Assembly (NCBI RefSeq): GCF_000219625.1
Contig: NC_018207.1
Location: forward strand, 868,001-932,000
DNA: 64,000 nucleotides
Reading direction: 5' to 3'
Origin: Zymoseptoria tritici IPO323
Lineage: Eukaryota > Ascomycota > Dothideomycetes > Mycosphaerellales > Mycosphaerellaceae
Part shown: positions 36,751 through 57,084 of the stretch, piece after piece
Layout of the letters: every line of letters starts with the position of its first letter
How positions within the stretch are numbered: the stretch's first letter is position 1
The notes under the pieces: model-generated
What the model was told of the DNA's origin: nothing
The model's database searches: none
The model's input: the letters and a program-made list of their open reading frames with translations, nothing else
Program-made: the position numbers and the translations under genes

Positions 36751-37398
36751 TGGCGAGTTCAAAGTTAACGTTCCCCTGCACACACAATCACATTTGCTTT
36801 CAGCGCGGCGCGGCAGCAGCGGCATGGCGTTACTTTAAGGAGGGAATTGGAGCGAGTCTTTTGGTCATTGTCTTGTAACAACACGAATATTGGGGGCGAA
36901 GGAGGCGCAAAGGTCGGGCAATGGAGCATCATGAGCGTACTCTCCGTGGACATGGAGGTCCGCTAGGCATCTGGGAGGGCAACAGGCGCAAAGGTCAAGA
37001 GCAGAAGCCGTGGACAATTCACGAGCGTATCTGCGCTGGGCAATGGGTCTCACGGCGCAAGGAAATGGGAGGCAACGGGAACATGGCAGACGTTCTCGCG
37101 CTCGACCAGGATGGTCCTCAGCGCACGAAGATTCACAACGATGAAACGCAATTACGACAGCGAGAAGGTTTTTTTGACATAGCGAGCACTCGGGTTCGCG
37201 CTTGATTGTAGCAAACGACAGGGCTATAGCCATGGAGAAACATGCAACATCCGTGCTGCACAGTGCGCACCAGTTCCACCACTTCCATGTGCACATTCCT
37301 TCCATAATCCATCGATCCACCTTTCAACCATCGCTTTACTCCATGCTGCAGCCACGTCGACTCTGTTCTCCTTCGCAAGACCCAACGCAGCGATGCGC
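36751..37398. other. Intergenic between converging SOG2 and P1
   Basis: Holds the two 3' untranslated regions. No gene is seen. Confidence 0.5.
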
Positions 37399-37860
37399 TT
37401 AGTCGAAGAGACCGAAGCCCATGTCCTCGTCGGACTCCTCCTTCTCTGTGATTAAATCGTATCAGCACTCGGTCTCCGTGTCCCATGAGTATACCGAAGA
37501 ACTCACCCTCCTCCTTAGCAGCCTCAGGCGCAGCCTCGGCGGCACCACCAGCAGCGGCGGGCGCGGCACCACCAGCGGCGGGAGCGGCACCACCTCCGGA
37601 TCCGACGTTCAAGAGCAGCTCCTTGACGTCCTTGCCCTCGAGGGCCTTGGCGAAGAGAGAGGTCCAGATGGGCTCGACGTCGGCGACTTTGGCGGCGGAG
37701 ATGAGGGATTGGAGCTTGTCGGCCTGAGAAAGTATCATGTGTTAGGAATGATTTTTGCAGCGGATCCCGCAGGCTGTGGGATATTGCGTACGGTGATTTC
37801 GACACCGTCATCCGCGAGGATGAGGGCCGCGTAGGAGGAAGCGAGCTCGGAGGTCGACAT
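37399..37860 (-). CDS. RPP1: 60S acidic ribosomal stalk protein P1
   Basis: P1 forms the ribosomal stalk with P2 and P0 and recruits translation GTPases. Exons 37860-37792, 37723-37507 and 37445-37399, 110 residues, the usual size; introns 68 and 61 bp. The N-terminal dimerisation domain reads [19 protein letters not shown] and [23 protein letters not shown] Gly/Ala/Pro-rich hinge follows, then the universal acidic tail [16 protein letters not shown] split by the second intron. VEPIW identifies P1 rather than P2. The promoter lies to the right, in the region interrupted 380 bp upstream by the large transposon. Confidence 0.98.
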
Positions 37861-38231
37861 TGTGATGTTGTTTTGTGGTGTTCGATGAGATGCCAACACA
37901 ATCTTGTGGTGAAGGTCTTCTTCTCGGCGATGTGGTGATATTCGAGAAAGCGCTTCGTTAGAATTGACAGTGCTGGCATTTCGTAGATCTTGGCATTCCG
38001 TAGATCTCATGCCTCAGGCAGGAGCGAGTGGGGCATGAAGCATGCACGACTGAAGAGGAAGGCGCTTTCATCGCTCTGAAACGACATGACTGGAAGATGC
38101 ATGTGCGGATCTGGATACCTCGCATCGCTGACTGCTAGCACTCACTGCATATGCACATTCATGTCGAAGAGCAAGCAGCGTCGAAGGTGCCGTGTCGTCC
38201 ATGTCTTCAATGTGGGACAAGGCATGGCCTC
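37861..38231. other. Upstream region of P1, cut by the transposon
   Basis: 371 bp without a gene. Together with about 120 bp right of the transposon it formed an original divergent promoter of about 500 bp between P1 and the DUF2408 gene. The flank is not RIP-mutated. Confidence 0.6.
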
Positions 38232-38240
38232 GGAAGCGGG
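38232..38240 (+). repeat. 9-bp target site duplication, left
   Basis: GGAAGCGGG directly before the terminal TAGTCTCAG; identical to 55414-55422 directly after the right terminus. Confidence 0.9.
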
Positions 38241-38320
38241 TAGTCTCAGACGCTCAGACCACCTCGCGTATCAGGCCAATCAGGTGCAAGCACCTAGCCC
38301 TACTGTAGGTGGTCTGAGGG
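38241..38320 (+). repeat. Left terminus: TIR plus subterminal hairpin
   Basis: TAGTCTCAGACGC at 38241-38253. Then TCAGACCACCT (38254-38264) pairs perfectly with AGGTGGTCTGA (38307-38317). The loop holds a smaller hairpin, AGGTG/CACCT (38282-38295). GAGGGCCTAA follows, as in the MITE at 58150. Confidence 0.85.
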
Positions 38321-38687
38321 CCTAACTAGTGTTTTTTGGTAATAGAGTGTTAGCTTTATATGTAAATTATACTAACATAGAGTGTTAGCACCTGAACGCG
38401 TCTGTACGACTAACAGCGACGATAGTATTACTAGGTATGAAATCTAAAAATCCGGCTTAGTTATCTAATGCAGATTAACGTGCTCTACAACCTCCTGCTA
38501 TTTGTTTTAACCTAACGCGTTAGACGAACGAAGAGTAGGCTTTCGCGTATCTTTAGTCTAACCGACGCGTTTGTATAGCGAGACAGCAATGCCTACTCCT
38601 CCTTTAGTTTTTGTCTAATGCTAATTAAAATTTGTCTATTAGATAGCTAGCCGTCCGCTCCCTAACTTAACTAAAGCTGATTTTAGG
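38321..38687. other. Left subterminal noncoding part of the transposon
   Basis: AT-rich, RIP-like sequence before the helicase frame. It contains AAAATCCGGC near 38447, a motif also repeated in the MITE. Confidence 0.5.
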
Positions 38688-39360
38688 ATGCCGCGCTATA
38701 AATCTCGTCTTTCTAGGTTAAATTCTAACCTAACCCGATCTTTCGCGACGAGTACCTTAAGTAGCTTTGGCGCTAGCGAGTCCGGACAAGTTAGCAATAT
38801 GTTAGATAAGGCGACTAATAAGGAGGATCGATCGGACGAGTCGTTTTCGCGTATAGAAATCACTGCTTTTACTAGCGTGCCTAAGCGCATTCAGGTAGTC
38901 GATAACGACGACGACGACGATAGTAATAGTCTGTCTAACGTCCTAAGTAACTTCGATAATAGCGAGGACCTCTAGGGTAGTCTACAAAACCCTATAGAAC
39001 CGTTAGTATTAGATATCGCCCTTTAGACGATTTTGTGTAGGGGTAGTATAAAAGTATATTTCATTCGGCGGGAAGGATAGCTAGAGAAGATAGTGTTAGC
39101 ACTAACTAAAGAGATTCCGGTCGAAGAAGACGACGTGTTAGTTAGGCGGCTGCTAGAGCGGGTATTCTAGTCGGCGTAGAGGAATGCCTATAATGTAGAC
39201 GTAGTCGAAGCCGCTTAGGTTAGGGCCCCTAACGAATGCTACACACCTTCTATTTCTCTGCCTGCTAATATGCTAGACTAGCTAGTTGTAATAGCGCGCC
39301 GCCGCGCGTTCGATAAGGTGTGCTACTAGATTAACTATACCGTCGAAACGCCCGTGCTTC

Positions 39361-39373
39361 TAGACGGACAATA
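39361..39373 (+). repeat. 13-bp LINE target site duplication, left
   Basis: TAGACGGACAATA, identical to 44972-44984, inside the helicase frame. Confidence 0.88.
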
Positions 39374-40340
39374 CAAAACATCGACATCCGCACTTCCATT
39401 GCACACCCAATATTGACCCGATCATCACCAAACACGCACTATTCGAAAGCCCTTATCAAGGCCGTTCTAACGAACCCGCATTTACCTCGCTGCCCTTAAA
39501 ACCTACGCCGCTACTGGAGTTTAAAGATTCACCTTGTTGCCCCCTTTGGGGTGCAAATTTTGACCCTAAACTCCGGGATTTGGCCCCTACCTCCGAAACC
39601 TTATTCCGACCTCACCTCCCCTATACTCGAAATATTCCCTGTTTAGGGCATTGTATAAGGAAGGTTCACAACCTGTACTATAACACAACACTACAACACT
39701 TCAACATACTATAACACAACTAATACGCCGCCGATTCGGACGCCGTGTAGCCCGTTTGAAAGCCCTCGACGAGAGCTCTTATTCTAGCTATCAAACGCCT
39801 GATTTGGTCGAATTCTAAAAGAGCTAAAGGCTAAACAAGAGCAGTGTCCCTAGGATACACAAACATACACATACACTTAGTTCTCTCTACACTAGAGTTA
39901 CCTGTTGTCCTACGCCGCTAAGAGAGGAAGCTAAAGGAGCAGTGTAGTTTAGTAAGGACGAATTTGCACCTCTAGGGATTAGAGTAGTAGTACTAGCTAT
40001 ATAGCTAGATACTCTGTATAGAGTATAGGCCTACCTTTCCCTAGAGACAAAGGTTGTCCCGAACCTGCTATAGCTACCTGTAGAACACCTCTAAAGCCTG
40101 CTACAAAGACGCACGTTGCTGCAGGCTAGAGTACTTCCTAGAAGCAGAGGTATATTTATATATCTCTTCTCTCCTCTTTAAAGTATACCTTCTCCCACTT
40201 TGTATAGTAGGAAGAAGAGTGCCCTAGTGTCGTAAGTAGGCTAGGACCCGAACGCGATTGGAAATAGAGACGAATAAGCAGCCCTCTCGGCGTAAGACTA
40301 CTAAGCCTCTTTTCAAACAATAAACAACAACAACAAGACA

Positions 40341-40879
40341 ATGTCTATCGAGACGGAAATGGAAATAACAGACGCAAGCTCAGCCCCTTAGACTCTAAAA
40401 GCTACGGCTAGAGGGGACGAGGAAGTTACGTTTAAGTCTCTTAAAACCCTGCCGTTGCCGGAGGAACTACTAAAAAGAACCGGCATTCCTTTTATACCTA
40501 GGAAAAGGCAAAACCCCTTCGAATTTAGTATCTCCCCGACTCGCAGCCCTTCTCTCGGAAAGAAACAAACACTCTCTTACACGCCCGCGAACGAGAAGAT
40601 CCTATAAGCCCGACAGCTACTAGTCGAAGCGGCGGGGGATCTAGTCGGGTTTCCAGGAGAACAAACCCGGGTTCTCGACCTTCTCGAAGTCTTTCAGCAC
40701 TTTACCAAGCGTACAGACTTTAGGACAACGTCCCAAATCCTCGCAAAGCAAGTCTCGAACCTAGAAATAACAACAAAGAAACTAGCAGCACAGGCGAAGA
40801 AGCCTACTTTCGCAGACGTTGTTAAGGGAGACAGCGGATCCGCTACCTCTACCTCCACCTCCTCGACAACAAAGACAAC

Positions 40880-40911
<32 letters not shown>

Positions 40912-41519
40912 AGTGGACGACCGTCTCCCGGAGGGCTAGTAAGCCGAAAGAACAAGTAGAACCGATGCCTCTTATCCTTGTACTAAAGGATAAAGAGAAG
41001 GAACTCGACTAGATCGCAACCCGAGACAAAATTAACGACGCTCTTAAAGGCGAAGACCAAGAGCTAGCTGTCCTTGCGATAAAGAAATCATTTCGGGGTA
41101 ACATTGTCCTAAACTTTGCAACAGAGAAAGCCCGCTAACGAACGATCGATAGCCTTACTAAGGTTACCGATATCGTAGGCGAGGCACGGGTAATAGAGGA
41201 CTCTCTCTGGCATAAGGTCGTAGTCTACGGCGTCTCGACCGCGAACTTTAACACGCCAACGGGCCTACAGGACATTTAACGAGAAATTAAGACCTTTAAT
41301 AGAGGTCTTAAACTTGCAGGCACCCCGATTTGGCTAACAAACGAAGAGAGAAGAAGGACTCTTACTAGGGCGACAGTTCTAGTAGGTTTTGCTACCGAGG
41401 AGGAGGCAAAAAGGGCTATTTAAAACCGTCTATACGTAGGCGCGGACAGCCTAAGAGTCGAGAAGGCGAAGGATCGTATACAACAGAAAGGGAGGCCCCT
41501 AGAACGTTCTATATGTTAG
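40341..41519 (+). pseudogene. LINE ORF1 (gag-like), RIP-disabled
   Basis: Starts MSIETEMEIT at 40341 and runs 393 codons to TAG at 41517-41519, with several internal TAG/TAA. It includes VLDLLEVFQHFTKRTD, a helical part (ILAKQVSNLEITTKKLAAQ), a Ser/Thr run and a CAA-repeat polyglutamine tract near 40880-40910. The stop overlaps the ORF2 start as ATGTTAG. ORF1 of this class binds element RNA. No zinc knuckle is evident in ORF1. Confidence 0.75.
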
Positions 41520-44500
41520 AACACTCTCTACGGATCTTCTACGTTAATCTTAACCGATCTATCGAGGCTACAGAGTCTACCTTAGACGTCGCGGTTAAGC
41601 AGAAAGCCGACCTTCTACTAGTCCAGGAACCGTGGACTATAGAAGACCCGATAATAGGCTACAAAGAGACGAGATCTATCGCACACCGGGAATACAACCA
41701 GCTATTCCTAACGACTACGGATTCGACGATCCGGCCAAGAACAATGCTATATATTAGCACAAGACTTAACGTCAATATCTCTCCTATTTTATTAGACGAC
41801 AGCGACATACTTTCCTTTGTTATTTTAGACAAGAAGGGCAACAAGATCCAGATAGTTAATCTTTACAACGAGAAAGACCTTCGGGATACCGAGAACCCGT
41901 AAAACCGACGAACAACAGAGAGAACCCTCTACTCTCTACGCAACACGTTCCTTCCAAACACTCTACTAGTAGGAGACTTTAACCTTAGACACCCGTCCTA
42001 GGATCCGAGGGGAAAGGATACTACTAGCGCCCGCGAATTTATAGAGTAGATAGAAGACCAGGGCTTTACTCTACGTAATACGATAGGTGTCGGGACCTTC
42101 TATAGGCCGCACCTAGACGCAGAGTCGGTCCTAGACCTTATGTTTACAAGAGGATCCTTATCTACGAAAGAAATCGACTAGAGAACGATTCCGACAGGCT
42201 TAGACTATAAGGCTATATCTATAGACCTTATTAGCGCGCAAGATCGAGCCTAACAGAAGAAAGTAGTTCTAGATATAGCTTCCGCGGATTAGGAACTGTT
42301 TACAGATCTCCTAATAAGCAAGGCGACGTCTATTGACTATACGAACTCCCTCGACGAAATCGCAGACTCCCTTACCTCGTGTATTACCGAATCGATGCGG
42401 GGAGCAATCCCAGAGAAAGTAGTATACGCCTACGCAAAACCTTAGTGGAATAGAGAGCTACGCACGCTACGCCGTACAATGTCTAGAACATATAGACAGA
42501 CCTTTACCGACGGACGTACGCCGACGCTTAACGAGAAAGAGGCGTACACGAAAGCGAGAAACGAGTACTTCCAAGCTATTAAAACAGCTAAGAAGAACCA
42601 CTAGAACGCTTTCCTCGAAAAAGAAGACTCGAAATCTATCTTTAAAGCTATGTCCTATACTAGAAATAGCAGCCGAAGACAGATACCTACGATAAACAAC
42701 GAAGATTCTTTCGAAGGGAAATGTAAGGCCTTCTCCGAAGCCTTATTTCCGCGCCCTCCTGCCGAGGAACCTCTGCCCAGCCGTTAGGAAGCGTATACAG
42801 CCGGGGATTAGGGCTGGACTACGCTAACCGAAGAGGAACTCGCTGCCGCCTATAGTACGAAGATAGTAAAAGGAAAAACGCCGGGCCTAGACGGTATTAC
42901 GCAAGCTATTATTAGTAAAGCGTACGGCGCTATTCCTATTACCTTTCTACGTATATACAGTAGGCTACTCGACGAAGGACACTACCCCCGATGCTGGAAA
43001 GTTGCGACAGGCGCAGTTCTAGCAAAGCCGGGGAAACTAGACTATTCGGTCCCTAAGGCCTACCGAGTTATCTCTCTCCTAAACTGTCTCGGCAAGATTA
43101 GCGAGAGAATACTCGCGAAACGCCTAGGGATTATCGCAGAGACGAAGCCCCTTCTACACGACTCGCAGTTAGGAGGGCGAAAGAAGAAATCGGCTATCGA
43201 TACGGTGCTTCTCTTAACGAACGAAATCGAGGAGAATCGAAGAAAGAAAAAGAAGACTTCGGTTATCTTCCTCGACGTAAGAGGAGCATACGACTACGTT
43301 GCAAAGAACCGACTGTTAAGAATAATAATCTAGTTAAGGCTTCCGCACAGCCTTATACGTTAGGTTTAGTCGTTTATAAGCAATAGACGCCTACGAATAG
43401 CATTCGACGGACAGATACAGGAATTCCAGGACGTAGAGATCGGCGTTCCGCAAGGCAGCCCGATGTCTCCTATCCTCTTTCTTATCTATACGCGCGACAT
43501 ATTCTTCTCGCTACAAGGAGTTACTCCTAGTTCCTACGTCGACGACATTAGACTATCTACCTCGTCTACGTCCCTTAAGAAGAACTCTAAGGTACTAGAA
43601 CGTGAGGCAAGAAGGCTAATAGACCTAGGAAAGAAGAACTCGATTGCTTTCGACCTAGCAAAGACAGACCTAGTACACTTCTCGAAAGGGAAAGGGTCCG
43701 ATTGCCCGGTAATTCTTCTAAACGGCGATATTGTTCGCCCGGCAAAGAAAGCGATAAGGTAGCTTGGGATTTAGCTAGACGCCGGTCTTACCTTTAAGGA
43801 GCACATTGCAATAAGATCGGCTTAAGCACAAGCGGCATTCTATCGATTAGAAAGACTAGCAAATACCGAACGCGGTCTGTCATCTATATCGTTAAGAAAG
43901 ATCTACCTAGCCTGCGTTACTACAATAGCAGACTACGGGGCCCCGGTTTAGTAGCGGTCGAAAAAGAGCATAAAACCTCTAGTATCTCTACAAAGTAAAG
44001 CTTATAGGAAGATCCTAGGCGTTTTCCGTACCGCCCCAAACGTCCCGTCCGAAGTAGAGTCAAATCTCTTCCCCCTGGATCTACGCCTAGAGAGACAGTT
44101 AATTTTATACTCTCTACGCGCAGCAAAGCTACCCGAAAACTACCCCGTAAGACTCGCTATCCAAAGCGCGCCTTCGGATACGCGAGAAGTCTAACACGAG
44201 GACTCGAGAGAGATACTTCCGCAAAAACGACAGAGAATATAGATACAACTACTCTATTATCGACTCCGACAATACAAGCATTTCGTAGAACACGAGAGGG
44301 CTAACCACGCAAAAGACGATCTCTTTAGCGTCTGGAAAACCCGATACGAAATAGCAAGACAACGGGAGATTAATAAAGTACCTAGGAATACAAATAGCTA
44401 CCTTAGTCGATTTCTATAGAGCTCGCTAGGAAAACATAGAATAGGAGGAAGACGTGCTTTAACTAGTGCCTTCTATACTATCCTATTAGGACACGGATAC

Positions 44501-44758
44501 CTAAAGTCCTATCTCTATCGCTTTAGACACGCAACGACGCCAGACTGCCCTTACGGACGACGAGAAACAGCAGAACACCTCGTATATAGCTGCCCTATCT
44601 ACGATGTATTTAGGCTACTACCGCTACGACAAGCACAATCTCTGCTAGAAATAGTAGAAGATAAGGAACTCCGGAAACACCTTACTACCTTTCTCTCGGA
44701 TACAAAGATTGCTTCTAGGTCCTAGCACCTAGTAAGAGGCGAAGACGAGACCGTCTAG
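41513..44758 (+). pseudogene. LINE ORF2: endonuclease and reverse transcriptase, RIP-disabled
   Basis: About 1,081 codons with many in-frame TAG and TAA stops. The N-terminus (LRIFYVNLNRS, then LLLVQEPWT) is the start of an apurinic-type endonuclease, with the catalytic Glu in QEPW. The reverse transcriptase has GIPQGSP-like VGVPQGSPMSPILFLIY and the active-site block SYVDDIRL (near 43537). The C-terminal region has GHGYLKSYLYRF, then CPYGRRETAEHLVYSCPIY, a CCHC-like knuckle typical of ascomycete Tad1 elements. An RNase H-like part may lie between. One unbroken stretch of 129 codons covers the endonuclease start. Confidence 0.82.
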
Positions 44759-44971
44759 CCTACACTCCTTTTACTTTTCCTTATTTGTCTTTCTTTAAAG
44801 TCCTTCGATACTAGCTTGCTACTATCCTAGGCACGGGTCCTTCCCTAAGGTCAAGAGATACGAGAGAACAACGAGTGTACATAGATAGACTGCTGTCGCG
44901 AGACAGCCGTCCTACATAGTCATAGACTCATACAGGACGTAAATGGAACAAACAAACAAACAAACAAACAA

Positions 44972-44984
44972 TAGACGGACAATA
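44972..44984 (+). repeat. 13-bp LINE target site duplication, right
   Basis: TAGACGGACAATA directly after the (ACAA)n tail; the helicase frame resumes here. Confidence 0.88.
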
Positions 44985-47604
44985 AGCTATAAGTATAGCG
45001 GAGTAGGTAGACATAACTGAGCGCGCGGTCCGTCTAATGTATCCGTATTATGCCCGAAAGCTATAAGTCCGTATACTGCGGCACCTACTCTTCGAGAAGA
45101 AAGACCTAGTCTGGATTGCAGCTACCTCGGCGGGCAAGAGTCTAGCATATTAGTTATAGGCGCTAATACGGAAGAAGATGTCGATCTTAGTACTTCTAAT
45201 TAATTAGATTAGCAAGGAACAGCTCGAGAAGATCGAGTGTTTAAAGGGAAAACTGTTAGTATTAAACTCGAACACTAAGGCGGAGCTTACTAACTAGTAG
45301 TAGAAGCTACTATATTCCGGGAAGTGTACCTACCTTATGTTGTCTCCTAAGATAGTAATATAGTCGTAGTTTATAAAACTAATAGTTAAACCGGTAGTAA
45401 GGCAAAGGCTCGGCCTCTTTATGTTAGACGAGTTCTACCTAGTTTACTAGTAGGGGATAGAGGGTAGAGGATTTCGGAAAGAATATACCTATCTAAAGAA
45501 TCTTTAGTCTACCCTAACTAATCGTGTTTGCTTCTTTAGTTGTTTAGCGACTCTCGAGCTAGATACTCTCGTTAAGTGTTAGACAGCCTTTAGCTTTTAC
45601 AACGATACAGTTGTCGTGCGGGATTCGATTAACTAATCTAAGATATCTATGCGATGTTGCGCTATTCTAGATAGTATGCTCGGGAACTACAAGACGCTTC
45701 GATATCTAACTAATCGCCTTGCCGGAGCTAATAGCGTGCCGAATCCCTAGTCGATTAAGAAAATAGTAGTGTTTATCGACAGTCGCTTAGGTATCTACAC
45801 TACGGCGTCTAGCCTCCGGTCCTACCTATATGCCTAATTCTCTAGAAGCCTAACGATTAACTAGATCTATACTATAGTAAGAACCTACTATAGCAGGACG
45901 GCTAGGCGAACGTAGGCGAATGTAATTAAGGAGTTCTAGAAACCAGACTCGAAGATCCGGATCCTGTTCGCGACTAAGGCTCTTAGTCTAGGCGTCGACC
46001 TGCCTAATATTAAACAGGTTGTTTAATACCGCCTTCCGCAGAACGCTAGCATGCGGACTATTATGTAGCGAGCCGGGCGCGCTATACGTAATAGTAAGTA
46101 GTAGGGCACTAGAACTTTTACCTTCCTTTACGACTAATAGATTGTAGGCCCTCGGTCGCCGGCCTAACTAAACTAGACTCGTGTAGTCCCGGACAGATTC
46201 TTAAACTCGGAGTAGGAGAAAGAGGCTAGTAATCTCGCCGATGCGCTATCTAACGCTAGATTAGATGCTAACGAGCCGGCGCCTGTCGGACTGCCGTCGG
46301 CGGTACGCAAGAAGCCGAGGGCGAAACTAGGTCCCTAGTAGAAGCGCGACAATATAAACTATTCCGTATAGGAGTTTGTAAACGCTAGATGTGATGCAGA
46401 TAGTCCGGTCGACTGTCGTCGCGTTACTACTTTAAAGCCCTTCGTAGAGCTACTGCCTAAAGGGCGTATCCGCAAGAACTACTACGACATCTACGACTAG
46501 GATATAATATTGCCTACCGACTGCTTTTCTAAATAGATTCCGTCTTTGGCGGACCTAGATGCCGCCTATGCTAGACGCCCGTACGAGAAGACGATCCGCG
46601 AGGGTCTAAACAAATAGGAGCCTAGCGTAGCCAAATTGTATTATAAAAAGGCACTGTTCCCTAGTATGCCCGGTTCTCTTCTGCCTTAGACGGTAATCGC
46701 GTATCTTGCTTCTATATTTGGCTCGCCTAGTACGAAGGGAGACGTAATAGCTCGCTAGGTCGAGCTAGCCTGTTCTACCGTAGACTTCCGACCGTCTCCT
46801 AAGCTTGTAACTATACTAGTTTCGAAGCTGTCGGTGTTGCTTAAGCTAGCGCAATCGGTCGAGGCCTAGGAATTGTAGAAGAGTTAGGAACGCGTCGGGG
46901 CGTATCGTATTCGTACGTAGAAGCGCTATCTAAGTCTCGAACTCTCTATAAGTCCTAAGCGATCTCCTAGGTCCGCTTCGGACAATGTAAGGGCTGCTAG
47001 TAAGCTAGACTATAAGCTTGCCGCTTAGTCCGTCTATAGTCCTTACACTAGTCCGGTACGAGAGCCTAGCCCTTTAGTCGGTAAGCCGCCTACGCCTGTC
47101 CCTAAAAGGCTAAAGGTTATATAGGCGTAATCTAGTAGAGCCGTCCTCCCTCCTAATCGCGCGCCTAGCTCTTCTGTCCGCCGTCCTACCCCGCCGCCTA
47201 GAGCGTATTCCGGAGTTTCTACCAGCTATCGAAAGGCTACGCCTAAAGTATCCGATAATAGAGTTCGTTCGGACGGCCGTCGTTTCGGCACTGTGTTAAA
47301 TCCGAACTAGATTCGGCTAGCTAGACGTCGGTTAGCTTCTCCGGTGCTAGCTATAGTGTCGCCCGAACCGATAATCGTAACAACGTCGCGTAGTCGGACG
47401 CGGGTAGCGAACGTAGTGCCCTAGAAGCATCGGTTTAGTTAGTAGGGTTTAGGTGTCGATAGTGTCTATAAAGAGGTCGACTAGTTAAAGATATAGACTA
47501 TTTTGCTAAGGATTTTAGATTTTAGCGTATTATAATAATAGCCCCGCTCGAGCCCTTAACATCGCCTCGTTATCTCTCTCTACTAGTATATTGTCCTTAT
47601 ATAT

Positions 47605-50600
47605 ATGTCTATAGTTATAGAAGCCTTAACTCTAGCCGCCCGAAGGGGGTGTCTGTAGTATAAATGCAAATTACCTAAGCCGGCGCCTCTAGTCCGAACG
47701 CCCTCCTAGTCGACGTTAAATGCTAGCGGGTCTAGATCGAGCAAGAGTCGGGATGCTAGTGTCCGGAGACTAAGAAACCGTTATAGCGAAGGCAAGACGA
47801 AGAGAGAGAAGGTAGACCTCCTGCTAGCCTAAATAAAGGAGTTAGGGATAACATTCGGGACCTTTGTAGAGCTGTATATCTTATATAAGAAGGGCGCCTC
47901 GTCGTCTAATTAGGCAGAGACGGCAGCTACTAGGACTAAGAGGTTAGCTAGTCTGTTATAGAAAGATTAGATATATATAAGAGTATCTAAGCATATGCCT
48001 CCCGGTAAGTAGATAAACACAGAAGCAGTATGTAACGAACTAGAGATGTTGCGGGGGCGCTAGGTAAGGAGGTCCGGTATATATACGGACATATACTTAC
48101 GTTTTTAGGAGTTCGGGCAGTAGGACTAAAAGATGCCTACGGAAGATCTAGATTACAAGGGTGCGGTTTAGTCGATAGGAGAGTGCGTACTGTTAATATA
48201 GGCACTCTTTAAGGGGATATTAGGTCTACTACGAAAGGCTGTCCTAGCTAATTACATGCTTAGGCGCGTAGGTCTAGTTGCTAGCTTACTCGGACGGACA
48301 TAGCATCCGCGATACTATAGTTAGTTCCCGAACTAGCTAGGAATATATCTCCAGAGCTAGGGCGTAAAGTGGCGGGTAATCGCAGTGCTATCCGGAATAG
48401 GTATCTGCGCGTTACCGAAAAGCATATACCGCTGCAATCGACAACTGCACTCCCTAGCGAAGGACCGTATTACCGGCTTTAGACGAGATTGCTGCATATA
48501 TAGTATCTATAATAACCTAGATATCTACTACAAAACCGGGGAGTATAGGCATAACCGTAAGGATAAACTAAAGTATGTTACGACTAGTATAGTACTTAAA
48601 AGCATCGAGGTGCCGCAGACTAGTCTAAAGCGGGTGTATTTTCGTAAGGACAAGCCTCTTTAGCTCGTAGACGTACTCGAAGGAGACGGCAATCGATACG
48701 ACGCTGTCTAGAAACAAATCTTACGCAGCCTTATTACCTCGGCTATCGTTAGATTGTATCCTAACGTAGTCGCGTATTGTTTAGGTGTCGATACTACTAC
48801 CGATAACGATCCTCCGCGTCGCGGTAATCGAACAGTAGTGTCTAGCACTAACCCGGGCACTAGTAGGGAGACCGCCACATATAATAAGCATAGAAAGAGC
48901 AAGATCGACTAGGACATTATCGCTAGCTTCCCTACATTTCCTACAATCGACTAGCTAGAGAAGTAGAAAAGCGTAACGTGCATACTAAATCTTATGTTCG
49001 AATACGAGGGTACGACTAAAGGCACATATGCCGTAATCGAGAACATTCTCGAGCGCTAACTCGGATATAGAGACATATATAACGAGTTCTTACGGCACTA
49101 AGACGCACAATCCTCGAGGGCTAGAGGGGATACTGTTTATAACTACTAAGGCGCTACTAGCAGCTAGCAAATCTACTACCGGAATCCTTATCCTGCCGCT
49201 AATAGCGACGCTACCTAAGACACGGAAGGTCGTCCTATTAAACACTCCTAGCAACCCTATTAGTTATACCTAGCGACCTAGTCTACTGTTCAACTATCCT
49301 AACAGCAGTATCTAGCAACCTAGTCTACTTTCTAGCTATCCTAACAGCAGTATCCGGCAACCTAGTCGACTTTCCAGCTATCCTAGCAGCAATATCCGGC
49401 AACCTAGTCTACTTTTCAGCTGTCCTAGAGCACGCCTATAACCTCCTAACTACTATATCCGGCGATACAGTCGACTTCTACGTCCGCCTAGAGCACCCCT
49501 ACGACTTCCTAACAGCTATCCGCGGCAACGAGTAGTAGTTTTCTACACGGTAGACGCAATTCGTCGGCCCTACGTAGTTATAGTATACCTAGCGGACCCC
49601 CGAGGGCGCTTAGATAGTCGCCAGGTATAGTACTACATATTCTACGAACGCGGTCGCTAGGAGAGAAGCTAGAACACTATATATACGATCGGACGAATGT
49701 TATCTTCCTAATGTATAGCGACTAGTTGTTAGTAAAGAACATCCGGACATGCCTTAAGGAGGCTCGAGAGAACGACGACGCATTCGACAAGATGCAATAG
49801 GTACTACCGTTACTAGGTTTGTTCTACCTAAAGATGTGCCTTATCTAGGCAATCGAGAATAACTTTAATAGGCGGGAAGGCTGCGCTGCCAAATCTTTAT
49901 TAATAGTCTATCGAGGACTAATAGAAAGGAAGATATGCCCCTTATTCTATGCACCCTATAGCTACCTAGAGTGTCTAACCTTAGACAGTTTTGATGCTAG
50001 AATACTCGCATTTATGTACGAAGAGCTTAAGCTAGTCGTATATAGTCGGACAGCGATATCGACCTACATTCGCGCACTTACTCGCTAAGGGTTTACTAGT
50101 CTAATAGACAAGGTCTACAAGAAGGCCTTCTTGCATAAGGCCTGCTCGTTAGATGCGGACTACCTAAAGGGAGACACTATTAAGGCAAAGAACTCGTATT
50201 TATTAAAGAGGTATTAGTCGAAGAAGGCTAGTGCGACTAACAAGGCTGCTACTATAGCCGACGGCAACGAAGAGCGTAGGAATTACATCCGATTCCTTTA
50301 TATCGTCGAGATATATTAGATACTGTCGCGAGCCGTAAAGTATACGGATATCGGACTACTCTGCCGGGTAATTAACCGATGCATCTTAATCTTCTACGCT
50401 AGATTACACAAGAATTACGCATTTATTATGCTATAGATAAAGTAGTTAACGGACACCGAGACGTCTTATCCGATACTGTAGCGGGCTATACTAGCTAACG
50501 GACTAGTAAATATAGCCGGTGCGGACGATAGTTAGTTCGAGATCGACAGGGCGAATAAGTTTCTTAACCGGTATCTGAAGACATTAATAGCTAGCTAGCG

Positions 50601-51294
50601 CAACGGCACGTTCGACGTCGAGAACTAACTAGAAGAAGCCGCGCTTTTAGCGACCTATACCGGCTACCTGCGAGAGGTTATCGAGGCTAGGTTCGGGGAG
50701 GTAACGAATACTAAGCATACCTTACTAAAGTTAGTCGAGGAGATATATGTAGTCGTAACGATTTGTTACTAGGAAACACTGCCGACGAAGGTAGTCGATC
50801 TAGATGCGAATATAGTCCTCCCTTTTTACGCTATAGACTTATATGCTATAGGTGTTAAGAACCTAGTAACTAACGTAAAGGGTAGCAGTCGACTAGAGAG
50901 GTTTAATAAGAATGTAGTTGTAAAGGACTCTTAGATTGTATAGGTAGACTAAGATCTAATCCCGGTAAACATAGAACTACCGGACCTAATAACGGATCCT
51001 TACCTCCGCCGTATAGTAGCGATAGACATCACTCCTGGACTAATAAGGACGCCTTAGGATCCTAATAGCGAAGACGAGGTAGGTAATGTTTACTTCGATA
51101 GCGACTAACCTTACTTGCTAACAGCTATGCTATTACCTGCCTCGTATGTGTATACGTTAGACGCCCTTAACATTACATTTAGGCACTTACTAACCGCCCT
51201 TTCAGGCATTAGCACGACCAATTTACGTGCAGACGCCCTTTACAAGACGCAGTTCGGTTATGCACCTATGTACGTACTACGTCGACGACGTTAA
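47605..51294 (+). pseudogene. DUF6589-like putative transposase, RIP-disabled
   Basis: About 1,230 codons in one frame with frequent TAG/TAA. From 48385 an intact stretch reads LSGIGICALPKSIYRCNRQ, then DNLD-like NNLDIYYKTGEYRH and LKYVTTSIV, followed by IEVPQTSL. Later parts read DKMQ, LPLLGLFYLKMC (near 49792) and LLATYTGYLREVIEARFGEVTNTKHT (near 50650-50720). This order (DNxD, TT, PxxGL, TKHT) resembles the DUF6589 family, which I associate with fungal mobile elements; no annotation source was available. A role as the DDD/E transposase is inference from its position in a TIR element. A 42-bp tandem repeat lies in the frame at 49267-49434. Confidence 0.62.
49267..49434 (+). repeat. Four 42-bp tandem repeats in the DUF6589-like frame
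   Basis: Units start at 49267, 49309, 49351 and 49393, each about 42 bases and in phase with the frame, encoding a repeated 14-residue Gln/Ser/Thr linker (pattern YPAT.STF.LS.QQ, dots are RIP stops). Confidence 0.8.
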
Positions 51295-51594
51295 TTATAC
51301 AGCTCGCAAAGGTAGCAAGACGCCTACTTCTACCCGACTTTAGTTACTAAACTTCCTTCCTTCTTTATTAACCTTCTTATACTATCCGATTGCCCTTCTA
51401 TCCCTCTATTAACTATTACTTTATCTATCCTTTACTATACTACTCGTTATACTACTTATCTATCCTCGCTAACTACCTTGCGCTTTTAATAGACGGAGAA
51501 TCTCGTTAGTAGACTACATTTAAGCGTAAGTTTCGCTACGCCTGCAAAGATAGAGATTTACTAACATATAAATAGTTTTACTATAGCACCTAGT

Positions 51595-53145
51595 ATGTAG
51601 AGGAAGCTAGCCGACTAGGGCATCTCGGCGGAGGGTTAAGATATGTACGATATGTACGCCGAGTAGTTTTGGACGGAATAGTATAGCTAGGTAAAAGTTA
51701 CGCTCTACAAAGACAACATTGTTAAGTTCGTTTAAGGGCTTTACCGCGTAGTGTATTAGAAATCCGGCTCGGTAATTAGGGACGTAAACAAGCGCGTAGG
51801 GCGTTAAGGGCGCATGCATTCTAGCATTATAGAACTAGTAGACGATTCCCGAACCGGTCTATACGCGCTCGTATCTAGTAAGGAGATTCTAAGGCGCTTC
51901 GGTAATTAGATACGTACCTTCGTGCCTAGCACCTCTGCTACGAAGCTAGTAGCTATTCTAGCTACTTTTTAGATAGGCGGTGCTATTATGTCGGCTACTA
52001 AGACTTGTACGAAGTGCGGCCTAGCTAACAATCCGAATAGATTCGCAAACGACTATATTGTCTAGCTACACCCTATATAGGAGAGGGCTAGGGATAGAGA
52101 GTTCCTCTTCTTAGGTGCCTGTACTAACTACCTACTTTATAGCAATTATAACAAGTATAGTCTAGCTACGAACAGTCTAGCTACGAAGTACACGAAGGAA
52201 GCAACGCCGGACCGTAAGGAGAGTAAGGAGGACGAAGAGACGGAGCGTCTTCCTAGCTTAGGAGACGCTTAAATAAAGATCTCCGATATGTTACTCTTTA
52301 TAAGTATAGAGAATGTCCCCGAGGTTATAACGCACTATAGTAGCGGACGCGTCTTAGGCAAATATAAGAAGTATAGGTGCATTATAGTCCTATTTAGATA
52401 CGACGCTCGATTCGACGCGGAAGAGTACACCGACTACCTAAAAACCGCTCTAAAGGAAGCGTAGGGAGAGGTTAACAAAGTAATTAACTAAGACTACTCC
52501 CGTCGCGACCTTCTAGATCTAGATAGTCCTCCGGTAACGATAGCGCTACCTTCTATCTAGCTAAAGACGCCTATATATAATAGGCGTACAAGCACTCGTT
52601 CGATAGGCGCTCTACAATCGGACGTAGAAATAGCGGACGCGTCTAAGGTTATAGGTCGTAGGACAACTCGCCGCATAAGTAATAAAGTGCGCGAGGACAA
52701 GGCGCGGTTAGCGGATAAGATTAGGGAGGAGCGGGAGGAGGCTGCCTACGAGGAGGCTAGAATAAGGTCCTCTTAGAAGGAGAGGCCGGCGAAGAAGTAG
52801 ACGCCTAAGGAGACGCCTACGAAGTCCCGGCATAACGATCCGCACACTCTAATAGCTGACTCTACTAAGCGAAGCGGGAAGAAGTTATTTACCCCGTTCG
52901 GATTCGACGTCTGGCAGGATAGCCCTTCCGGCGGAAGACACGTCTTAGAGGGCGGCGAACTAACCGGCACGTTCTTCTTGCCTAGATAGGTTAACCTAAG
53001 CCCGGGACGTAAGCGAAACGAGGGTTCGATCGACTTAGATAGACACGTCGTCTAAAGCATCTTTTCGCACTAGGACTAGAGTTACGGTAGCCGGGTTCCT
53101 CCTAGCAGTAGGCTAAAGAAGTTAGACAGGCGTAGAGGCAAATGA
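51595..53145 (+). pseudogene. Third transposon frame: zinc-ribbon-like protein with basic tail, RIP-disabled
   Basis: 517 codons ending at TGA (53143-53145), a stop type that is otherwise absent from the frame. Internal stops are TAG/TAA. The middle reads CTKCGLANNPNRF and, about 30 residues on, GACTNYLLYSNYNKYS, which would be CxxC...CxxC...C if RIP changed Cys or His codons to Tyr. This resembles the DUF3716 zinc module of fungal proteins. The C-terminal third is Arg/Lys/Glu-rich (KARLADKIREEREEAAYEE) and likely nuclear. The function is unknown; DNA binding is a guess. Confidence 0.5.
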
Positions 53146-54240
53146 TTTAGAGGTAGCGAGCACGAGCGTTAACTATATTTAACTAATTTTATAAGCATGT
53201 TTGTAGCACTTAGGTAAGATGCGACACGAGCATTCTTTATAGCTTACCTGTCTCTAGGATAGCCCTGTAAGTGTTAGCTTTAGTATTTATTTCGCGAGTC
53301 CCTTTTAATAGTAAAGTGTATAGAACCTTTAGCACTGCTATTAGTTGCTTGCCTGTCGTTAGGATAGCCCTATAGGCGATAGCTCGAGCGTTTAGTTAAG
53401 TAGATTTCAATTAAACCCTAAAAGCCTGCTTATATCTACTAGTTTCTTATTAAAAGTATTATATACCGTAACATAACCTAAGCTAGGCTACGACGACAAC
53501 TTAGATATATTAACCTTCGCCTAACAGCCGATAGTAAGGGGGACGGGCCTAATACAAAGAACCGGACTAAGGAGTCTAACATAGCCTTTAGCCTCGGCGT
53601 AGTAGAGCGCCCGGCTACCTATATAGCCCGTATAGTAATATAGTAATAGCAGAACCGACATAATACTAGCCAGACAGTCCTTAGCTAGCAAAACTTATTA
53701 ATAACCTCGCTAGGTTACTTAAGAAGTAGAGCATCTAGATAGGCGCACGTCATCCGACGCAAGACTATTACCTAGAGCCTCTAACAACGTAGACTTAGTA
53801 GCAGAACGATAAGCAGTAGAACGATAAGCAGCAGAACAACAAGTAGCAGAACGACAAGCAGCTAAACGGTAAGCAGCTAAACGGCAAGTAGCTAAACGGC
53901 AAGCAGCTAAAGTAGTATCGCCTAGAGCCCTAGGCTACAATCGATAGGCGGAGCAGTACGTAGCATATAGGTAGTTAGGTAGAGCATTAGCTACAATATT
54001 TGCGACCGGCGGACTAACAGCTAAACTGCACATTAGTCGGATCGTCTAGCGAGATTATACGATAGCTAACATAGATTAAGGAAACAATCCGACATTACGT
54101 ACGCGTAACGCCTACGCAGACCTGCACATTTACTAGGCAAACAAGACGACGACGCGAAGACAAAACAGACGCGATAGGGCGAAGTATTTATCTCTCGGAC
54201 ATTAACAACGTTTAAACATATCGCATCGACATTAACAACG
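53146..54240. other. Noncoding part of the transposon
   Basis: RIP-like, AT-rich sequence without a sustained frame. It holds a 15-bp tandem repeat at 53805-53909. Confidence 0.5.
53805..53909 (+). repeat. Seven 15-bp tandem repeats
   Basis: Seven contiguous units close to AACGACAAGCAGCTA, with scattered C/T and A/G differences of the RIP type. Confidence 0.8.
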
Positions 54241-55044
54241 ATCGCCTTCTACCGGTCTAGCCTAATTATCCTCTTCCGCATCTACTTATTAATTACTACC
54301 TATTTAGGTGCGTATCGAGCCTAACTAGTCGCTCGTAGCTACTAACATCTAAAGATTAGTATATGCTAGCAATACGAAGAGACCGTCGAGCGCAATCCTC
54401 GCAAAGGAACTCTCTAGAGAGTGCGCTAGCATGTCCGACGCTAGATAAAGGTACTACTATCGAGCACCTTCCTAGACTACGAGTATAACAACGTATACGA
54501 GATAGCAGCTCCTCGCCCTAGGGGAATATACGGCAGCCGCGCAGGCGTCGGCGATAGGCGCAGCGCTATGCTAGAAGACGTCCGCAACCGAAACCCGCTA
54601 TCCTACTACGCTACTATAGCGTAGCTAGTACGCGAGACTATAAGTAGATACCTCGCGCCTAGGATTCCGTACTACGAACTAAAGCTTACGCACACTAGGA
54701 ACATTTAGAAGAAGGCAGATACTATTTAGCCAGGCAGCTTAGTGTCGCAAAGGCCGGAGTACAGCGGAAATGCGCTAGACGGCAGTAGAGTTAGGCATAG
54801 AGAGAGACGAGAGCTAAGCGTTAGACGTTAGTTAGTTGCTATACTACCGGCGGCTGCTAGGCGTCGAGACCTAACCCCGAGTGCTAATATAAACGTCGCT
54901 TTAACCTCTTTAGGTCGCAGGTCTAGTATAGCTGCCCGCGCTTAGCGGGAGGTAGAGGATAGAGTAGTTAGATAGCAGAAGAAGGAAGCCCTAATAGCAC
55001 GTATAAACGCATAGGCTTAGTCGAGTACCCTACGGTATAACTAA
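54241..55044 (+). pseudogene. Fourth transposon frame, unknown, RIP-disabled
   Basis: Frame in the same phase as the others, readable through TAG stops, about 268 codons. It contains DYEYNNVYEIAAPRPRGIYG and ETISRYLAPRIPYYELKLT. Start uncertain, end at TAA 55042-55044. I do not recognise a family. It could instead be a spliced 3' exon of another gene of the element. Confidence 0.35.
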
Positions 55045-55345
55045 GTGTAAGTTATATAATAGCTACCTTCGCCGGATAGGTACAGACGACTAGTAGCGCA
55101 AAGGCGGGTAGAGGTAGTGTTATATAAAGGGAGGATATAATACGTCTAGAGGTCTAGGAGCGGCTAGAGATTCCCTTTTAGGCGACTAAGGTGCGGCTAT
55201 TGCGATTAGGCGGAAACAAATTATATTAGATTAATTTTACAAGTTATACGAATCGTTTGCGGGTATTAGACAGGCGTTTAGACTAATATACAAGTTTTCA
55301 GATTTTAGCTAACCCTCTATTACCTAGTTCGGCTGTTGCGCTCTT

Positions 55346-55413
55346 AGACTATACAGGAAGGCGCCCCCGAAGGGGATTAGCGCCGCCAAGTATAGTCTGT
55401 GCGTCTGAGACTA
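55346..55413 (-). repeat. Right terminus: TIR plus subterminal hairpin
   Basis: Read from the outside in (minus strand) it starts TAGTCTCAGACGCACAG. AGACTATA (55346-55353) pairs with TATAGTCT (55391-55398). Inside, GGCGC/GCGCC (55360-55364 with 55380-55384) and CCCC/GGGG (55365-55368 with 55372-55375) pair further. Confidence 0.85.
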
Positions 55414-55422
55414 GGAAGCGGG
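55414..55422 (+). repeat. 9-bp target site duplication, right
   Basis: GGAAGCGGG directly after the transposon end; identical to 38232-38240. Confidence 0.9.
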
Positions 55423-55542
55423 GTCATTCGGACATCCATCTATCGCCGCCGCGCCTCTCATGACATCCTCGCTCGTCTTCCACCACCAACCTCACAATCA
55501 CCATTCCTTTCGACACACACCACACTAGAACACCCTCCTACG

Positions 55543-57084
55543 ATGACAGACTCACCCTACCAGCGCATCCCGCTGGATCCGAAAGAACAACCGATCCTCG
55601 ACCGCATCCTCATCATCCGCGACCACCTCTCCCTCCTCAAATCCGATCGCAGCACATATATCAAGAGCGCAGACGTCGTCAAGTACTATGCGCAACTGGT
55701 GGAGCAGGTTGAACTGCTGAACAAGATACGAGTAAACAAGCGCGATGAACAGAATCGCGTGGACACAGTACTGGACGACTGCTTTCGGCTTATCTCGCTC
55801 TTCTTCCTCACGATTGGCCGCAACCGCGAAGCACCGGCAATTTACTCATGTGTCGCAACGGTGGATAGATTACTCAATCACTTGAAAGAGGCTGGGTTCT
55901 ATCTTCCCAGCGATTTGACCAGCATCAGCGACCACCTTGATAAGTGGGAGAAGACCATTGAGCGGGATAGGAACCAGCACTCTGAGGATCTTCTCACCCT
56001 GCTCAAGGCACGGATTGATCTCTGCAAGGCGACACTGAAAGATCTGCGGGCGCCGCTGAGCAAGATGGACAAGGATACGATGCGCACATACGAGAAGCTG
56101 GTGTCGATTTTGCGGTCGCTTTCAGCGTGCAACACTCGGTCGAAGGTAGGACGAGACAGCCTGGCACGACTGGTGACGTATTCTAACAAAGGTATAGTTC
56201 CCATCGAAGGAAGTCAAAGAGTACGAAGACCAACTACACGAGATCCAAACCGAGCTTCACGCCGATGCCCCGACTCACGAAGGCAAGAGTGCAGAAGACG
56301 TGTACGCTGAAAGACTGGCTTTGATCCAGCTCGCCGACAATGTGGAGGAAGATGGGACGACTGTGGCAAAGTCTCTGCTCGCGAGATGTCTTCTGTGGGC
56401 AGAAATCATCCAGACGAGGTGAGCGGCAATTCATGAAGTGCGAGCAGCTGGAATGTAAACTGACAACGGAATGATAGAAACGGCCAAGTCGAAGAACGAT
56501 TCAGGGAGCTATTTGAAAAGCTTCTAAAGATCAAGAATGCCCTCGAACACATGAACCTCACTCAAGCATGGTCACTCCGAGAAACAGACTTGTACGACTT
56601 CCAACGCCAGCTCGATCGCATCGACGACTCACGTGTGGGCGGCCAATTTGTCGATGCCGAAGGTAAGGGCGGCGATCTCCACGCCCAGCGAACGCTTCTA
56701 TACCTGCTGCGCAAAGGCTACGCCTTCATCTACACGTACATGATCTCTTCCGAGCCCGTGTCGGAAGCCCTCCTCCCAATCTACAACCAGCTGCAGACTC
56801 TGAAGAGATGCCTCGAGGAAGTCAAGCGCTCTGGTGGAGTCGACAGCCCGCGCGAGCTCTACCCTTACAGCATGAAGCTTACCTCCATCGACAACATGCG
56901 CAAGGACGGGAAGTTCATGGTTGGCGAGGACGTACCGGAGGGACAGGGAAGCGTTACTGCTCTGCTGTCCGAGTGCTTCGAATTGGCTTATGAGTTGAGG
57001 AATGATGCGGATGAGAAGTCGGACCCTGCTGGTGGTCCGGTGCAGGAGCCGAATGGCAATGGTGCAGCGCAGACTGCTTCATGA
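55543..57084 (+). CDS. DUF2408 / UPF0662 family protein
   Basis: Conserved fungal cytosolic protein, like fission yeast C30C2.08, of unknown biochemical role. Exons 55543-56145, 56198-56418 and 56478-57084, 476 residues; introns 52 and 59 bp, the second with branch AACTGAC. The sequence is largely helical: ILDRILIIRDHLSLLKSDRS, YYAQLVEQVELLNKIR, FRELFEKLLKIKNALEHMN and RTLLYLLRKGYAFIYTYMI. The tail is acidic and low-complexity. The ATG at 55543 is the first with family sequence after it; the frame opens upstream to 55399, crossing the transposon boundary, which cannot be native. The transposon end lies 130 bp before the ATG, so the native promoter has been displaced. Confidence 0.88.

Follow-up and report, generated by a model that had tools for sequence, protein, structure and literature searches.

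What kind of mobile element occupies positions 38,232 to 55,422 of the 64,000-nucleotide stretch of Zymoseptoria tritici IPO323 DNA analysed here (RefSeq assembly GCF_000219625.1, contig NC_018207.1, positions 868,001 to 932,000 of the forward strand; referred to as the window), and what moved it? An initial annotation had described a complete 17.2 kb DNA transposon with exact ends and a 9-bp target duplication, had pointed both to AcademH and to Mutator-like elements and had considered the element not to belong to a standard family. Our analysis indicates that the element, termed family A in the following, is very probably a DNA transposon family of the AcademH type which was moved by a protein combining DUF6589 with a helicase and was later broken by repeat-induced point mutation (RIP), its filing being set by published descriptions. 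It is a real element of a known kind and not a new kind of element; the verdict of a non-standard family was, in our judgement, too strong.

The borders of the copy present in the window are the following:

38232 to 38240, no strand: left copy of the target-site duplication (TSD), GGAAGCGGG, read directly
38241 to 38253, plus strand: left terminal inverted repeat (TIR), TAGTCTCAGACGC, read directly; the same 13 bases in 11 of 11 copies
55401 to 55413, minus strand: right TIR, TAGTCTCAGACGC on the minus strand, read as GCGTCTGAGACTA on the plus strand; the same 13 bases in 10 of 11 copies
55414 to 55422, no strand: right copy of the TSD, GGAAGCGGG, read directly

The copy itself extends from 38241 to 55413, and the reading of both ends yields a perfect TIR of 13 bp which grows to about 19 bp if one mismatch is allowed. 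As the initial annotation had proposed, we searched the organism's own genome (39,686,251 bases in 21 contigs) with the outermost 100 bases at either end. The left end returned 33 matches, 11 of them strong (95–100% over the full length) and 22 weaker and partial, while the right end returned 11. Each strong left match has a partner on the right, which makes 11 full elements bounded by the same termini, both ends being identical over 13 bp in 10 of them. Each is flanked by an exact 9-bp direct repeat whose sequence is different at every locus, family A having spread in multiple copies to unrelated sites. Since the terminal sequences pair at 11 loci and all 11 show an exact 9-bp TSD, the TIR/TSD structure seen in the window is not due to chance, and the exact ends and 9-bp duplication stand precisely as claimed. 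The pattern TAGTCTYARACGC occurs 25 times in the genome, whereby 22 occurrences are the ends of the 11 copies; the remaining three may be chance as the reversed control of this pattern occurs four times. Pooling 27 TSDs (11 from family A and 16, one of them inexact, from the sister family B described below) reveals no strong target motif; A is rare at position 9, with one of the 27. The left end of family A was also searched for in plasmids, without a match.

With 17,173 bp the copy in the window considerably exceeds the element proper. Seven of the 11 copies are uninterrupted and measure 11,574 to 11,651 bp, which sets the element at about 11.6 kb; the other four, i.e. the copy in the window and the copies C21 (18,577 bp), C3b (20,279 bp) and C11 (14,139 bp), harbour nested insertions. 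The copy in the window reaches 17.2 kb because it contains a 5.6-kb long interspersed nuclear element (LINE) of the Tad1 type with a duplication of its own:

39361 to 39373, no strand: left copy of the 13-bp duplication of the nested LINE, TAGACGGACAATA, read directly
39374 to 44971, plus strand: nested Tad1-type LINE with (CAAA)n tail and in-frame stops, recognised from its domains, its duplication and its overlap with family 623
44972 to 44984, no strand: right copy of this 13-bp duplication, read directly

Besides the target duplication and the simple-repeat tail, the insert shows the endonuclease (about 41846–42178, 1.3e-14) and the reverse transcriptase (about 43031–43774, 2.1e-29) expected of a LINE. 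A 4.2-kb piece of it matches at least 36 genomic places, scoring having covered 35 of 136 candidates. If contig numbers are taken as chromosome numbers, matches among those listed fall into eight of the nested clusters given with family 623 in Table 4 of PMC4522978, on chromosomes 2, 5, 6, 7, 9 and 14. Family 623 is a Tad1-clade LINE with a reported TSD of 12 bp (PMC4522978), and it is this overlap, rather than a tree, by which the clade of the nested LINE was assigned. In the accessible part of the same paper family 623 is absent from nests based on a DNA transposon. As the copy in the window represents exactly such a nest, this suggests that family A lies outside the DNA-transposon class of that paper. 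The LINE would have inserted later, into the helicase reading frame of this copy. "Complete 17.2 kb" hence holds for the outer ends, whereas the size has to be corrected to about 11.6 kb plus 5.6 kb of nested LINE, and completeness does not extend to function, as in-frame stops interrupt DUF6589 in all 11 copies.

The coding content of the copy in the window comprises the following features:

38625 to 39368, plus strand: N-terminal portion of the coding sequence in element frame 1, ahead of the nested LINE, from frame analysis
45082 to 46092, plus strand: superfamily 2 (SF2) helicase, RecQ-like by sequence and interrupted by in-frame stops, from Pfam domains and comparison with the PDB
49248 to 49415, plus strand: repeat of 42-bp units inside the coding strand, from the sequence
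49696 to 50718, plus strand: DUF6589 (PF20231), presumed transposase core with 10 TAG and 2 TAA inside (2.4e-29, 105.5 bits)

Pfam thus bore out both the helicase and the DUF6589-like content of the initial annotation. Its zinc-ribbon frame, on the other hand, could not be recovered, as only DUF3716 in copy C9 (0.011) and DUF808 in the copy in the window (0.068) came up, both below the cut-off. Helicase domains were tested in these same two copies; Helicase_C is found in the window at about 45868–46092 (9e-11) and DEAD in copy C9 (3.4e-6), and the best match among solved structures is to helicase Q5 chains in the PDB (5.8e-10). DUF6589 occurs at 41 places in the genome, 40 of them above the cut-off. 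Thirteen of the 41 belong to family A, whose 11 copies have one or more each, and all 13 contain in-frame stops. Helicase and DUF6589 share strand and frame (plus, element frame 1), and between element positions 385 and 7182 this frame has 14 codons which are a stop in every copy (mostly TAA or TGA), compared to 69 and 83 in the remaining two. The shared frame suggests one continuous protein in which DUF6589 would be the catalytic transposase. The sole stop-free DUF6589 match of the 41 is located at C18:115874-116983 in an open frame of 575 amino acids with a further open frame of 410 amino acids upstream; protein P0003 from Z. tritici strain ST99CH_1E4 is 100% identical to this gene over 95% of it.

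How is such an element to be filed? According to PMC10045372, as far as its text is accessible, AcademH produces TSDs of 9 or 10 bp and AcademX of 3 or 4 bp, a difference tied to the presence of a helicase or a nuclease, respectively, while PMC10799480 lists DEAD together with Helicase_C as domains of AcademH, KolobokH or Helitron. Family A displays exact 9-bp TSDs at 11 of 11 copies, TIRs of 13 bp which are perfect in the window, and an element-encoded helicase (DEAD/Helicase_C) in the copy in the window and in copy C9. KolobokH is unlikely since Kolobok duplications are TTAA. On sequence grounds AcademH appears to be the best filing for family A, and of the two suggestions of the initial annotation this was the better one, its helicase, TIRs and 9-bp duplication agreeing with the summary in PMC10045372.

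Several observations weigh against this filing. The DEAD region of the copy in the window (about 45082–45492) remains below the cut-off at 0.0012. The predicted structure of a DUF6589 protein has a mean predicted local distance difference test score (pLDDT) of 44.9, and neither a DDE fold nor a catalytic triad is visible in so poor a model. A comparison of the DUF6589 profile with solved structures yielded no relative (best E 0.88). Ends and TSDs were read in a single genome, IPO323, and the filing rests on published descriptions of TSD, TIR and helicase. The protein searches supplied 11 distinct proteins (P0001 to P0011), too few for a deep alignment.

Family A might instead represent a separate, undescribed superfamily whose DUF6589 transposase and RecQ-like helicase were joined independently of AcademH. 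Such an origin would fit with the missing solved relative, with the fact that no paper naming DUF6589 was found in the literature searched, and with the undamaged DUF6589 gene on C18, for which no helicase domain was detected in the two proteins scanned (the near-identical homologue P0003 and the upstream frame). Yet TSD length, TIRs and helicase domains all agree with the published AcademH summaries, and we regard an independent origin as improbable.

Two hairpins are found next to the ends of the copy in the window:

38253 to 38318, plus strand: left subterminal hairpin with 12-bp arms at 38253–38264 and 38307–38318 (z -1.93; 10 of 200 shuffles fold as well)
55346 to 55398, plus strand: right subterminal hairpin with arms at 55346–55354 and 55390–55398 (z -3.45; 0 of 200 shuffles as good)

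The left hairpin exceeds chance only slightly. Reading the sequence also shows the motif CTCAGAC twice at the left end, where it plausibly forms a putative binding site. For an AcademH-type family A the following course is most likely. A protein with an SF2 (RecQ-like) helicase at its N terminus and DUF6589 at its C terminus would bind the 19-bp TIR and the adjacent hairpin, excise the element and insert it in cut-and-paste manner into a target site whose strands are cut 9 bases apart, and repair of this site would give rise to the 9-bp duplications. The helicase would play an accessory part, opening strands or helping repair where the cut is made. After amplification RIP would have mutated the copies separately until the DUF6589 region was broken in all 11.

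The copy in the window is flanked by a minus-strand gene (37133–38231), which we take from its sequence to resemble ribosomal protein P1, and by a plus-strand gene (55423–57084); it is probably located in the shared upstream region of both.

The second suggestion of the initial annotation, a Mutator-like element (MULE), is very unlikely to be correct. The 9-bp TSD speaks for it as MULE duplications are likewise about 9 bp, and the length falls within the range of 4 to 10 bp that the accessible text of PMC10045372 states for IS256 and MuDR. A search for the MULE domain, however, returned 50 places in the genome and none in the 11 family A copies, which carry helicase and DUF6589 instead. Since 48 of these 50 places contain in-frame stops, RIP does not blind the search. 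The two stop-free matches, C13:1122240-1122530 and C9:934870-935199, lie in open frames of 210 and 685 amino acids and are possibly undamaged or domesticated genes.

The 22 weaker left-end matches indicated a sister family, family B, with the TIRs TAGTCTCAGGCGC and TAGTCTCAGAAGC. Its ends were read for 16 of the 22, six being left unread. Sixteen end pairs were fetched, 15 from the 22 and one more, of which 15 show an exact 9-bp TSD and one a TSD with a single mismatch. Among the matches listed, 12 of 16 have a length of 13.4–14.6 kb (element about 13.7 kb), three pairs spanning 26–36 kb probably hold nested elements, and a short derivative of 421 bp is found at C1:4509625-4510045. A further derivative of 123 bp lies at C7:1582623-1582745 with the TSD GACATTTGT. 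Family B also carries DUF6589, and DEAD matches are located near the left end of two copies (5.6e-8 in L040; 1.2e-4, below the cut-off, in L039). The 342-residue predicted protein P0001 from strain ST99CH_1A5 matches the family B query with 90% identity over 71% of its length. In one family B copy (L045:1471-2928 and L045:1-1164) long frames are broken by TAG only, with no TAA or TGA. The pattern TAGTCTTAAGAGC, a TIR-like word, occurs at many places on many contigs and, among the matches listed, in part near contig ends; it is probably part of another repeat.

The seven uninterrupted family A copies differ pairwise by 4.8–6.2%, and 3–20 of the 555–722 differences per pair (21 pairs) are transversions; so few transversions suggest that the amplification is young. 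Both RIP and a dim2-dependent C-to-T change at CA sites are reported for Z. tritici in the accessible parts of PMC4522978 and PMC8016269. The base context in family A was counted over all 11 copies at sites with unchanging neighbours where C survives in one copy or more. There the mutated fraction amounts to 0.79–0.81 at TCA and CCA, 0.33–0.38 at GCA and ACA, 0.04–0.06 at TCG and CCG, and at most 0.015 elsewhere, i.e. RIP depends strongly on the base 5' of C (about 0.8 of YCA but about 0.35 of RCA mutated). A literature search for this base context in Zymoseptoria returned nothing relevant. The 11 copies offer a clean natural record of the RIP context in this fungus. The overlap of surviving YCA sites, which bears on whether the common ancestor was already depleted by RIP, gave pools of 78–348 by pair and 310 for the union, values set aside here since estimates of this sort come out too low when rates vary from site to site.

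The DUF6589 region is broken by RIP in 11 of 11 family A copies. Compared to P0001, with which a family B copy on C2 shares 303 of 342 residues, the eight stops of this copy stand for Trp (four), Gln (two) and Arg (two); those of family A stand mostly for Trp, Gln or Arg, plus one His and one Asp position at which the families differ. That these frames still work, with TAG decoded as tryptophan through adenosine-to-inosine editing or a changed code, is hardly credible: such a reading opens long frames, TAG is fixed in all copies at many codons, TGG, wherever it survives, is kept by one copy of 11, and UAG editing is known from filamentous ascomycetes (accessible text of PMC11156358 and PMC11087585), but TAG alternates with TGG, CAG and CGG between family A copies, a fixed TAA is present in frame, the changes are C-to-T in CA context, and the undamaged homologue P0001, coming from another strain, excludes TAG as a sense codon since the stops stand for three different residues. 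To judge from these comparisons, the in-frame TAGs of family A are RIP scars and not the result of recoding.

No paper found in the literature searched names family A, although it may well be contained in the curated Z. tritici transposable element library of 2023 with, according to its accessible description, 331 consensus sequences. The exact ends, TSDs, copy list and coding layout of family A, and in part those of family B, allow current annotations of this well-studied wheat pathogen to be checked. Placing the uncharacterised DUF6589 in an element bounded by TIRs and 9-bp duplications renders the assumption of an Academ-type transposase directly testable.

Family A resembles Helitrons in possessing a helicase and a hairpin near the 3' end and differs from them by its TIRs and TSDs. 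Helitron_like_N (Rep/HUH) was found at 12 places in the genome, 11 above the cut-off, and in none of the 11 family A copies. Because of the TIRs, the TSDs and the lack of this domain in its copies a Helitron identity is excluded for family A. It is nevertheless conceivable, if doubtful, that published work on Z. tritici has classed families A and B as Helitrons. The two families share a TA at their start, a helicase match and DUF6589, and roughly added up they account for a few hundred kb; the last bases of family A are CTA, and in 7 of 11 copies a purine comes next. In the accessible part of PMC9970103 the full-length copies of high-copy families measure 218–13,907 bp with DHH among the longest classes, and the length of family B (about 13.7 kb) comes near this upper value. 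These points motivate such a misfiling but do not prove it. Against it stand the 12 Helitron_like_N places, which represent true Helitrons in the same genome, and the fact that no more than 7 of the 11 family A copies would show CTRR at the 3' end. If it were true, some of the reported Helitron bursts in Z. tritici would be cut-and-paste bursts of AcademH.

Ultimately, we compared family A with the remaining systems in question. Plavaka and KDZ are fungal DNA transposons with TSDs of 2–3 bp (Plavaka) or 8 bp (Zisupton, Dileera) according to the accessible text of PMC12730594. Plavaka was rejected since its domain is found in none of the 11 family A copies, whose TSD measures 9 bp; the two places elsewhere, C7:784803-785627 and C2:245909-246730, are heavily stopped relics. 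The KDZ domain search gave no match in the genome, its control being silent as well, and the TSD of family A is 9 compared to 8 bp. The comparison with transposase profiles which the initial annotation had proposed was thus negative for MULE and Plavaka, with KDZ returning no match under a silent control. AcademX belongs to the same superfamily as AcademH and differs by TSDs of 3 or 4 bp and a nuclease in place of the helicase (PMC10045372, as accessible). AcademH itself, reported in the accessible part of PMC10799480 to be of low copy number in Ascomycota, is the system which family A resembles in its DEAD/Helicase_C helicase, its TIRs and its 9-bp TSD.

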